Assembly (NCBI RefSeq): GCF_000429785.1
Contig: NZ_AUCN01000018.1
Location: forward strand, 1-64,000
Length of the DNA: 64,000 nt
From: Chitinibacter tainanensis DSM 15459
GTDB lineage: Bacteria > Pseudomonadota > Gammaproteobacteria > Burkholderiales > Chitinibacteraceae
Reading direction: 5' to 3'
Each line of letters starts with the position of its first letter. The stretch's first letter is position 1. Positions 56,888-60,900 of the stretch are shown here, piece by piece. The notes beneath the pieces are model-generated. The model was not told the DNA's origin. It searched no databases and was given only the letters and a program-made list of their open reading frames with translations. Both the position numbers and the translations under genes were made by a program.

Positions 56888-57046
56888 ATGTCTATGCCCC
56901 GCAGCAGTGTCATTAGCGCTATCAGCGCCCAGCTAGAACAGCTTAGCCCCGCCGAATTAGAAGCACTGTATAACCGGTTATACCCGCAAACGCCCATCGT
57001 GCAAGTGGGCCCCGCCTTATTCGAACATCAAGATATGGATGATTGA
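56888..57046 (+). CDS. Small unknown protein, 52 residues
   Basis: A short frame with a perfect AGGAGG seven bases before its ATG, 35 bases after vanZ. It begins MSMPRSSVISAISAQLEQLS, then PAELEALYNRLYPQTP, and ends FEHQDMDD. The middle part should form an amphipathic helix; there is no signal peptide, membrane segment or Cys. The strong ribosome site and coding-like composition argue for a real gene. I do not recognise a family. Confidence 0.62.
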   Translation: MSMPRSSVISAISAQLEQLSPAELEALYNRLYPQTPIVQVGPALFEHQDMDD

Positions 57047-57400
57047 TTTAACGCAAAAAACCCCGGCATCGACCGCTAATCTGCGCTGTAAATATTAACC
57101 GGCCAAAATGCCAAAAATGAATATCCGCTCGTGCGCGAAAGGCATAGAATATTTTCATGCATTCGGAATACCAAAACCCGAATGTCAGTCAGTAATCGAG
57201 TATGTAGCAAGCAAATCATTACAACACCGGCTAGAAACTGATCCAGATCAATTTTTTCCGCTGGCGTGGTGATTAGCATAATTGGATGTAATTTTTTTGT
57301 ATCGGCCGATGCCTGAACGACGTTTGCCGAACAGCGGTAGAACAGCCAAAAGCGGTTTTGGCACAGGATGTCCAGCCGACATCGCCACAAGGAGATACTC
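57047..57400 (+). promoter_or_regulatory. pflB upstream region with FNR-type promoter
   Basis: This 354-base gene-free stretch is AT-rich toward its end. CTGATCCAGATCAA at 57238-57251 matches the FNR consensus TTGAT-N4-ATCAA in nine of ten positions. TAGCAT at 57274-57279 could be the -10, putting the transcript start near 57286 and the FNR site centre at -41.5, the class II position. AAGGAG precedes the pflB ATG. I see no other gene. Confidence 0.65.
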
Positions 57401-59746
57401 ATGAACGCCCCAATCGATAAAGCTCTGGATCAATCACAACTGGACGCCTGGCGCGGTTTTACCGCCGGCGAGTGGCAACAGCAAGTTGCTGTACGTGATT
57501 TCATTCAGGCTAACTACACCCCATACGAAGGGGATGATCAATTCTTGGCGGGGCCGACTGAACGTACGACCCAATTGTGGAATGAGCTGTCAGCTTTGCT
57601 GAAAGAAGAGCGCAAACGCGGCGTGCTGGAAGTATCCGCCCAGTTTGGCTCAACCATCACCGCCCACGATGCCGGTTATATCAATAAAGACCTGGAAACC
57701 ATCGTTGGTCTGCAAACCGACGCGCCACTACGCCGCGCGATTATGCCTAATGGCGGTTTACGCATGGTGCAAAACGGCCTGAAAGCGTATCACTTCGAAA
57801 TGAACCCGCAAATCGAAGAGATTTACACCAACTACCGCAAAGACCATAACAACGCTGTATTTGATGCCTACACTCCCGAAATCATGGCCTGCCGTAGCTC
57901 AGGTGTGATTACCGGTTTGCCAGATTCATATGGTCGCGGCCGGATTATCGGTGACTATCGCCGCGTGGCGCTGTATGGCGTAGATTTTCTGATTGCCGAC
58001 AAAAAACGCGAAAAAGCTGAGCTCGATGACGTTGCATTCAGCGAAAACGTGATTCGCCTGCGGGAAGAATTGGCCGAGCAAATCAAAGCGCTGAATGAAT
58101 TGAAAGTCATGGCCAAAAAATATGGCTTTGATCTGAGCCGCCCAGCCGCCACTGCGCAAGAAGCGGTGCAATGGCTGTACTTTGGTTACCTTGCTGCAGT
58201 AAAAGAGCAAAACGGTGCGGCAATGTCGATCGGCCGGATTTCGACTTTCCTCGATATCTACTTCGAACGCGATATCAAAGAAGGGCGCATTACCGAATCG
58301 CAAGCTCAGGAATACATCGACCATCTGGTAATGAAGCTGCGGATCGTACGTTTCCTGCGCACCCCAGAATACGATGATCTCTTCTCCGGCGACCCAACTT
58401 GGGTGACTGAATCGATCGGCGGCATGAGCGAAGATGGCCGTACTTTGGTCACCAAATCAAGCTTCCGTGTGCTCAACACCCTCTATAACCTCGGCCCAGC
58501 GCCAGAGCCTAATCTGACCGTACTGTGGTCAACGTCATTCCCACAAGGCTTTAAAGAATTCTGCGCGAAAGTATCGATCGATACTTCGGCGATTCAGTAC
58601 GAAAACGATGATTTGATGCGGCCAAAATGGGGTGATGACTACGCCATCGCCTGCTGCGTATCCGCGATGCGCGTGGGTAAACAAATGCAGTTCTTTGGCG
58701 CTCGGGTCAATCTGGCCAAAGCCATGCTGTACGCGATCAACGGCGGTGTAGACGAGAAAACCGGCAAGCTGGTAGCCAAAGGTTTTGAGCCAATTAAAGG
58801 CGACGTGCTCAATTACGACGAGCTGATGGCCAAATACGACAAGATGCTCGATTGGCTGGCCAAAACCTACGTCACTGCACTCAATTGCATTCACTATATG
58901 CACGACAAATACGCTTACGAGCGGATCGAAATGGCGCTGCACGACCGCGATATCCTGCGCACAATGGCTTGTGGGATTGCCGGCCTGTCAGTGGCGGCCG
59001 ATTCGCTGTCAGCCGTGAAACACGCCAAAGTGCATATCAAACGTAACGAATCCGGTCTGGCGGTTGATTATGTGATCGAAGGCGAATACCCAGCCTACGG
59101 TAACAACGACGATCGCGCTGATGATATTGCGGTGTGGCTGTCGACCACGTTCATGGACAAAATCAAAGCCCAGCCGGTGTTCTACCGTGACTCGATGCCA
59201 ACGCAATCGGTACTGACCATCACTTCAAACGTGGTCTACGGCAAGAAAACCGGTAACACGCCAGATGGCCGTCGTGCTGGCGCGCCTTTCTCACCAGGTG
59301 CAAACCCGATGAATGGCCGCGATAAAAACGGCTTTGTGGCTGCGGGCTTCTCCGTGTCGAAAATCCCGTACGAATCAGCACTGGATGGGGTGTCTTGGAC
59401 AGCGTCTATGACGCCAGATGCGCTGGGTCACAATGCCAGCGATCGCGTCAAAACCCTGGCTGCGTCGATCGATGGTCTGTTTGGCCCGCACGGCGATGAG
59501 TGCCCAACTTGCCAAAGCGCGGAACGCGTAGACCAAGCACTGGCCGAGCTGGAAGAAGGCCCGGATCAGTTGTTCCACCTGAATATGAACGTGCTGAATA
59601 AAGACACGCTCCTGGATGCGATGGAACACCCAGAGAACTATCCGCAGCTGACTATCCGCGTTTCAGGCTATGCCGTGAACTTTGTCAAACTGACCCGCGA
59701 ACAGCAGCTGGACGTGATTAACCGGACCTTCCACGCGAAGTGCTAA
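57401..59746 (+). CDS. pflB: Pyruvate formate-lyase (formate C-acetyltransferase)
   Basis: A 781-residue glycyl-radical enzyme converting pyruvate and CoA to acetyl-CoA and formate without oxygen. The two active-site cysteines are Cys418-Cys419 in [14 protein letters not shown], the same numbers as in E. coli. The radical glycine is Gly756 in RVSGYAVNF. An insertion of about 20 residues relative to E. coli, holding CPTC at 701-704, lies just before the glycyl-radical segment. The start at 57401 fits the family N-terminus ([20 protein letters not shown]). It is first in the pflB-grcA-pflA locus. Confidence 0.97.
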
Positions 59747-60019
59747 ACCCAGCTTGGCGATACACCACCCGTGTATCGCCAGCTCAGCAAAGCGGATCAA
59801 AGCTTTGTAGCCCATACCCCACAAGGAGAAATCATGGCCCAGTTATTTCATCTGAATATGAACGTGCTGAACAAAGAAACCCTGCTCGATGCGATGGAAA
59901 ACCCGGATAAATATCCGCAGCTCACTATCCGCGTTTCAGGCTATGCCGTGAATTTTGTGAAACTGACTCGCGAGCAACAGCTGGATGTCATCAACCGGAC
60001 ATTCCACGAGCAGTGTTAA
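59569..60019 (+). repeat. Tandem copy of the pflB 3' end
   Basis: The pflB 3' end (59569-59746) and grcA (59840-60019) are near-duplicate DNA, offset by 273 bases. Most differences are at third codon positions. Confidence 0.9.
59834..60019 (+). CDS. grcA: Minimal autonomous glycyl radical cofactor
   Basis: A 61-residue protein that is a free-standing copy of the PflB C-terminus: from [12 protein letters not shown] to the end, 53 of 59 residues match PflB by my count. The radical glycine is Gly36 in [10 protein letters not shown]. coli GrcA (YfiD) has 127 residues with an extra N-terminal half, which is absent here. The known role of GrcA is to replace the radical domain of oxygen-cleaved PFL. 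AAGGAG precedes the ATG, in a setting very like the pflB ribosome site. PflA should install the radical. Confidence 0.9.
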
Positions 60020-60041: not shown

Positions 60042-60072
60042 AACGGATCGCCGGGCGCGATCCGTTTTTTTT
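60042..60072 (+). terminator. Terminator between grcA and pflA
   Basis: Arms AACGGATCGC and GCGATCCGTT with a five-base loop and an eight-T run. It should cut most transcripts before pflA. Confidence 0.9.
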
Positions 60073-60099
60073 GCATCATTTTTTGCCGCGAGTACCCAT

Positions 60100-60900
60100 A
60101 TGGAAGCCAATAAACCCCTAGGTGAAATTATCGCACCGGCCTTCGATGCCGAAGGGCGGCAATATGGCTATGTTCATTCCATCGAAACCGGCGCCGCGGT
60201 TGATGGCCCCGGCATGCGCTTTGCGCTGTTTGTATCGGGCTGTCAGTTTCGCTGCCTGTATTGCCACAACCCTGATACCTGGAAGCTGCATACCGGCAAG
60301 CAATGGACGGTGGATGACATCGTGGCCGAGATTGGCAAATACGCGAGTTTTTTGCGAGTAGCCGGTGGCCTGACGATTTCAGGTGGCGAGCCGCTGATGC
60401 AGGCGCATTTTATCGGCGAGATTTTCCGCCGCGCCAAACAAGATTTACGCATCCATACCGCACTGGATACCCAAGGCTTTCTGGCGGCGCATTTGCCAGA
60501 TGACTATTTCGACAATATCGATTTGGTCTTGCTCGACATCAAGCAAATGAATCCAGAGAAATACGAGGCCCTTACGGGTAAGCCACTGCAACCCACGATC
60601 GATTTTGCCCAGCGCCTATTTAAAATGGGCAAAAAAATCTGGCTCCGTTATGTGTTGGTGCCGGGGTGGTCGGATGATGAAGCGGATGTGCAAGCCTTGG
60701 CCGATTATCTTGGTGACATGTCACGCCAATACCCAAATGTGCTGGAGCGAGTCGAAGTACTGCCATTTCACAAAATGGGTGAAAACAAATGGGCCGAGCT
60801 GGGGCTGAAATATGAATTGGCCGACACCCAGCCACCGAGCCAAGCTGTGGTGCATCGGGTCCGTGAGCAGTTTCGCGCGCAGGGTATATTTTGCTGTTAA
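60100..60900 (+). CDS. pflA: Pyruvate formate-lyase activating enzyme
   Basis: A 266-residue radical SAM enzyme that makes the glycyl radical on PflB. The iron-sulfur motif CxxxCxxC is in CQFRCLYCHNPDTW. GGEPLMQ and the SAM-contact segment DTQGF are present. It is about 20 residues longer than E. coli PflA at the N-terminus; VHSIETGAAVDGPGMRFALF marks the family start. It lies after a strong terminator, so it is probably expressed at a low level, fitting its catalytic role. Confidence 0.95.
   Translation: MEANKPLGEIIAPAFDAEGRQYGYVHSIETGAAVDGPGMRFALFVSGCQFRCLYCHNPDTWKLHTGKQWTVDDIVAEIGKYASFLRVAGGLTISGGEPLMQAHFIGEIFRRAKQDLRIHTALDTQGFLAAHLPDDYFDNIDLVLLDIKQMNPEKYEALTGKPLQPTIDFAQRLFKMGKKIWLRYVLVPGWSDDEADVQALADYLGDMSRQYPNVLERVEVLPFHKMGENKWAELGLKYELADTQPPSQAVVHRVREQFRAQGIFCC

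Follow-up and report, generated by a model that had tools for sequence, protein, structure and literature searches.

The 64,000-nucleotide stretch of contig NZ_AUCN01000018.1 of Chitinibacter tainanensis DSM 15459 that was analysed (the window) carries a pyruvate formate-lyase (PFL) locus in which a small gene, here called mini-grcA, is placed between pflB and pflA (Table 1). It is separated from pflB by 87 nt and from pflA by 80 nt, and its frame is complete, with 61 codons and a stop. The preliminary description had seen in it an independent gene encoding the glycyl-radical segment of PflB, and this is confirmed: the last 59 residues of mini-GrcA align without gaps to the PflB C-terminus, with 53 identities and 6 replacements. 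Over 62 codons, 157 of 186 bases are identical to the 3' end of pflB, the differences being 19 synonymous and 8 non-synonymous codons (two of the 8 are the unaligned first codons). The product scores 61.5 bits against the Pfam domain Gly_radical (PF01228, cut-off 22.2), and by alignment its radical glycine is G36.

Table 1. Coordinates of the features at the pfl locus, numbered within the window
Feature	Position	Strand	Remarks
FNR-like box CTGATCCAGATCAA, upstream of pflB	57238..57251	+	pattern scan without chance control
pflB, pyruvate formate-lyase	57401..59746	+	781 aa, complete; own radical glycine G756 by alignment
PflB linker	59474..59575	+	residues 692-725 (34 aa), immediately ahead of strand beta10
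PflB glycyl-radical tail	59567..59743	+	segment duplicated in mini-grcA
Hairpin in the gap between pflB and mini-grcA	59754..59782	+	without U-tract
Ribosome-binding site AAGGAGA	59823..59829	+	ends 4 nt from the mini-grcA ATG
mini-grcA	59834..60019	+	61 aa; a strand region is followed by the radical loop (G36, 59939-59941) and a C-terminal helix
Intrinsic-terminator-like site	60042..60074	+	after mini-grcA, before pflA
pflA, PFL-activating radical SAM enzyme	60100..60900	+	266 aa; TIGR02493 301.4 bits (cut-off 231.75)

When mini-GrcA is modelled alone, its first 8 residues have a pLDDT below 50, and helices are predicted at 14-22 and 46-57 with strands at 31-34 and 37-40 between them. The part of PflB that matches its start forms strand beta10 in the PflB model, and only five residues stand ahead of H6 of this strand in mini-GrcA. 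Judged from the genomes compared, the ATG at 59834 is the correct start. All 26 genomes with the gene have a frame beginning M/V-A-Q (25 with ATG, one with GTG) and AAGG or AGGA upstream, and in one of them (G401) a stop codon immediately 5' of the ATG excludes any longer frame. A GTG at 59771, giving 82 aa, was considered as a general start and rejected, both for this stop and because the open frame ahead of the ATG differs in length between genomes, with anything from 0 to 99 codons.

PflB is recognised by TIGR01255 over residues 16-780 (1160.4 bits, cut-off 994.2), and its model resembles E. coli PFL (2pfl, TMq 0.93). Downstream, pflA is present in the window and at all 42 other loci of the family. 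A pattern scan without chance control found FNR-like boxes at 22 of the 43 family loci, using what we take to be the FNR consensus, and the box upstream of pflB makes anaerobic control possible. No sigma-70-like promoter was detected between 57000 and 60200, pflB included, where shuffled sequences averaged 2.7. A 52-aa ORF (MSMPRSSVISAISAQLEQLSPAELEALYNRLYPQ..., 56888-57046 of the window) lies between the upstream ORF and pflB.

The best 45-nt stretch of the gap between pflB and mini-grcA has a folding energy of at most -14.5 kcal/mol in all 26 genomes, and perfect stems give a hairpin in 22 of them (both counts without shuffled control); a terminator-like site occurs in this gap in two. Behind mini-grcA such a site is present in 26 of 26 genomes if T-runs inside the stem are allowed (15 of 26 with a scan that misses these), against 6 of 43 for a control stretch inside pflB, and of the 17 family genomes lacking mini-grcA 12 have one no more than 300 nt behind pflB. 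The few terminators in the gap, together with the site behind the small gene, indicate that mini-grcA is probably carried on the pflB transcript, which would end at the terminator before pflA; pflA may be transcribed apart from the other two. At one locus (L141, genome G353) similar repeat-like insertions, sharing GAAGCCTCATGTAC and more, stand behind both pflB and mini-grcA.

The arrangement is not peculiar to the window. Each of the 43 Chitinibacteraceae genomes searched encodes a PflB whose radical tail is complete and conserved; 26 of them have a second match immediately behind pflB, and 17 have none. The 26 genomes belong to four genera (6, 7, 9 and 4 genomes), and in all four the gene has the same place between pflB and pflA. 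One genome has a product of 63 residues and the other 25 have one of 61, the radical motif RVSGYAV is invariant, and so are 43 of the 59 columns of the alignment. Four residues (N23, D25, K26 and E59) mostly tell mini-GrcA from PflB, and the window copy, converted as it is (see below), has kept them too. Between genera, pN and pS are 0.076 and 0.828 (uncorrected Nei-Gojobori proportions, near saturation). Conservation in four genera and the low pN/pS show that the observation is beyond chance, and on these comparisons mini-grcA is a maintained gene that evolves under purifying selection.

The preliminary description had proposed to look for GrcA proteins of 55-70 residues beside pflB. Outside the family, 399 sampled genomes of the order and 398 of the phylum gave no match in a frame below 100 residues, and the separate GrcAs there were in frames of about 127-176 residues. 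A conserved long GrcA elsewhere in the genome, which had been named as an argument against the proposal, was looked for and not found, as PflB and mini-GrcA account for every match in the 43 family genomes (E <= 0.001). The other Gly_radical match of the window's own genome (contig C2) reads by inspection as NrdD, followed by an NrdG-like gene. Among the best matches in the openly licensed literature, compared by titles and abstract openings, we found no report of a 61-residue GrcA adjoining pflB.

A feature absent from the preliminary description is an insertion in PflB itself. Counted between D691 and H726, two positions that are near-universal in the alignment and of which the second opens the H-x-N of beta10, the linker has 27-37 residues in the 27 PflBs of the insertion clade, among them all 26 with mini-grcA, and 8 residues in the other 16 PFLs of the family. 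At 129 other PFL loci, three of which are family members again, 108 linkers have 8 residues, 20 have 13-18 and one has 31. The AlphaFold model of the window PflB has a pLDDT below 50 at 698-718, ahead of beta10 at 726-731. In a quick tree of the PflB core the 27 long-linker rows form one branch (SH-aLRT 100), and G399, with a 28-residue linker and no mini-grcA, is placed among the g7 rows. By parsimony, linker and gene would have arisen once, on one branch, with a single later loss of the gene. Because both originate once on the same branch, a functional tie between them is only suggested. The single 31-residue linker, from another family of the order (G117, locus L024), has two cysteines before beta10 and comes without a second match; this joint has apparently been lengthened there independently.

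Outside the family (loci L015-L034 and L183-L211), 15 PFLs from genomes with a YfiD-type GrcA have linkers of 13-18 residues, and of 31 PFLs from genomes without GrcA 25 have 8, three have 14, two have 13 and one has 31. This comparison covers the subset of GrcA genomes found, with the three family rows dropped and GrcA presence read from frame lists, and linker length is confounded with PFL lineage, so that we regard the relation as a lead. The matches listed for 299 genomes from the phylum of a Clostridium included too few GrcA cases to test such a rule.

Mini-GrcA falls outside the models of the GrcA types as curated, scoring 87.9 bits against TIGR04365 (YfiD type, cut-off 170), 118.8 against NF008341 (GrcA2, cut-off 145) and 104.2 against NF038360 (GrcA3, cut-off 158). 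By inference it works like a GrcA, being a standalone Gly_radical domain with the motif in a genome whose PFL is complete and keeps its radical tail. It is not the subunit of a split PFL, where the core has no radical domain, as the window PflB retains tail and G756, and it has no N-terminal half of about 60 residues as in the YfiD type. E. coli GrcA/YfiD (127 aa, PDB 6owr), which mini-GrcA matches over residues 72-125 (phmmer), likewise coexists with an intact PFL; mini-GrcA differs in that the disordered 60-residue N-terminal half is missing and the gene lies directly behind pflB. Phage GrcA (PHROG 1209; three annotated genes of 120-122 aa among 1532 matching records) has the same module in a standalone gene, but with a long N-terminal part and in a phage genome. 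GrcA2 and GrcA3 (83 aa) resemble mini-GrcA as short glycyl-radical proteins encoded behind a pfl core, and at two GrcA2 loci (L135 and L062) an activase-like ORF follows by inspection; however, at the GrcA2/GrcA3 loci compared the core lacks the radical motif and the small protein is the only source found, whereas the window PflB is complete. A further counterpart is a laboratory construct, truncYfiD (residues 61-127), which in the available text of PMC8683613 comprises the same minimal unit of strand, radical loop and helix. That construct is man-made and has 67 residues, whereas mini-GrcA is natural, maintained, 61 residues long and partnered by a long-linker PFL.

In E. coli, PFL is cut by oxygen at its radical glycine, and YfiD, which has the same tail, replaces the lost one and receives a radical from PflA, as described in the available part of PMC8683613. 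By analogy, we think it likely that mini-GrcA is a GrcA/YfiD without N-terminus that replaces the tail of oxygen-cut PFL, and the sequence comparison supports the earlier view that the 3' end of pflB was partially duplicated and that the copy resembles a spare part. Oxygen would cut PflB at the glycyl radical, expectedly between S755 and G756 (S733-G734 in E. coli), and the cut stub would swing out, aided by the long disordered linker. Mini-GrcA would then dock where the stub had been, and PflA would place a radical on G36, bringing PFL activity back. In the available text on E. coli, residues 696-733 of the cut PFL must shift aside and are needed for binding (PMC8683613), and in vivo about half of the formate is restored to PflB G734A by E. 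coli GrcA (PMC12338860).

Three observations count against this proposal. The product stays below the cut-offs of all three NCBIfam GrcA models. According to the part of PMC8683613 available to us, residues 1-60 of YfiD are disordered, and YfiD without them gave a nearly fourfold lower radical yield (4.1 instead of 15.9 uM) and bound cut PFL too weakly for ITC; once activated, its turnover was not lowered, with a KM for CoA of 40 vs 13 uM (wide errors). Lacking this half, mini-GrcA should also bind cut PFL weakly. Finally, linker and gene are not strictly coupled, as G399 and G117 have the linker without the gene. A doubtful but possible extension is that the recognition element has changed sides, from the disordered N-terminal half of the spare part in E. 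coli to the disordered linker of 27-37 residues in PflB, such that the bare 61-residue module suffices. If this were true, a linker longer than 8 residues would let a PFL accept a replacement tail.

Loci in other phyla have to be considered with respect to a different role. In Corynebacterium sp. TAE3-ERU16 (L135:1766-4183) and Dermabacter hominis (L062:1652-4183) the PFL core ends before beta10 and is followed by an 83-residue GrcA2 with its own start and then by the activase-like ORF; Pfam scans of both genomes gave two Gly_radical pieces only, those of these loci. Among 296 genomes of the phylum of Dermabacter, which we take to be the Actinomycetota, a radical domain of PFL type 1 (at least 79 bits) is present in 18, fused in four and in a separate short frame in 14, Dermabacter included, and in all 14 split loci (L231-L244) a core without radical motif precedes the small frame. 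Two split-PFL examples exceed the GrcA3 cut-off. At least four short radical frames behind cores without radical domain (L245-L248) were found among the 299 genomes from the phylum of a Clostridium; one is a type-1 split PFL and three look PFL2-like by inspection. GrcA2 exceeded its cut-off in one of 101 genomes of the order of G794, namely G794 itself. Several of the small frames, including the ones at L135 and L062, share the reading frame of the core, so that individual cases may be due to a read error, but the pattern of stop, gap and new start is seen repeatedly. The 'autonomous cofactors' GrcA2 and GrcA3 look, from these loci, like obligate subunits. We found no papers on GrcA2 or GrcA3 in the openly licensed literature, nor a report of split PFL among its best matches by titles and abstract openings. 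Cysteines recur before the radical module, as a CxxC pair in 21 of the 27 linkers of the insertion clade (698-718 in the window PflB; absent from those of g7, G399 and G353) and as CC/CxC tails in many split cores (L232-L243); such junction cysteines could possibly bind metal or act as a redox switch.

These loci lend some weight to the view that mini-GrcA is a routine alternative tail, for which even uncut PflB would swap its own, and an intermediate on the way to a split PFL. A separate 83-aa radical-domain gene is the commoner state in the sampled Actinomycetota with this PFL type (14 of 18), a split PFL is also present in one of the 299 genomes mentioned above, full-length PflB G734A regains activity with E. 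coli GrcA in the available text of PMC12338860, and mini-grcA is seemingly on the pflB transcript. Nevertheless we consider this unlikely, as the radical tail of PflB itself is complete and conserved throughout the 43 family genomes. It is even less probable that mini-GrcA is a decoy which titrates PflA and so tunes PFL activation without any repair. The radical loop it would need is there, and a feedback of this kind would suit co-expression with pflB, but the regions of beta10 and the C-terminal helix, beyond the loop, are also largely invariant, and free YfiD is a poor substrate of PflA (Km about 100 uM vs 1.4 uM for PFL, in the part of PMC8683613 at hand).

The duplication has a long history, as opposed to the 'young' duplication of the preliminary description. 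A tree was calculated from the 26 mini-grcA copies and 43 pflB 3' ends (177 columns, many weak branches). As regards the earlier question whether copies cluster by gene or by genome, 25 of the 26 copies form one clade (93/98), and the window copy alone stands outside it, next to its own pflB at a base that is weakly resolved. Forcing all 26 to be monophyletic costs 3.3 log-likelihood units and is not rejected (AU p 0.438). The 25-copy clade groups with the pflB ends of g162, g7 and g159 (97/99) and is distant from those of g1 and g2, an odd placement that could result from conversion, from saturation, or from spread after the gene had arisen in one branch; its constant position between pflB and pflA in four genera favours descent over spread.

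Gene conversion, suspected earlier as the cause of the similarity, is borne out by the own pairs of mini-grcA and pflB, which total 970 differences against 1008.5 (sd 11.2) with pflB partners shuffled within genera. Values as low as observed arose in 4 of 20000 shuffles (14 of 20000 with the window genome left out). The window copy has 25 differences to its own pflB, whereas the pflBs of its genus differ from it by 37.8 on average, and conversion is strongest in the window genome, G421 and G426. As read from these alignments, mini-grcA is an old duplication with later partial gene conversion, and it is because of this conversion that the likeness in the window genome reaches 53/59. The identical leader before both ATGs (CCACAAGGAGA, 11 nt) is real in the window; it fails as evidence for an internal deletion in a duplicated pflB, since at least 10 nt are shared in one of 26 genomes only, and little can be concluded from it about the origin.

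A young duplication in the lineage of the window, not yet under selection, would explain the 53 of 59 residues shared with its own PflB, yet this likeness is accounted for by conversion; the shared position in four genera, the single clade of 25 copies and the within-genome synonymous difference to pflB (mean 0.70, window 0.485) make it highly improbable. A functionless, decaying duplicate, to which the missing gene in one of the five insertion-clade genera (a single genome, G399) might point, is extremely improbable, as frames are intact behind AAGG/AGGA in 26 of 26 genomes, pN/pS is below 0.1 between genera, and none of the 26 copies is broken.

The work on E. coli left open how the disordered half of YfiD aids binding to cut PFL. 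In these Chitinibacteraceae a maintained gene without this half meets a partner with a longer hinge, a ready-made pair in which recognition could be set against catalysis. The names GrcA2 and GrcA3 may, as the split loci suggest, hide an obligate subunit. Taken with these, the family's locus suggests a series that leads from a fused PFL, via a fused PFL with a spare module, to a PFL with a permanently separate radical subunit.
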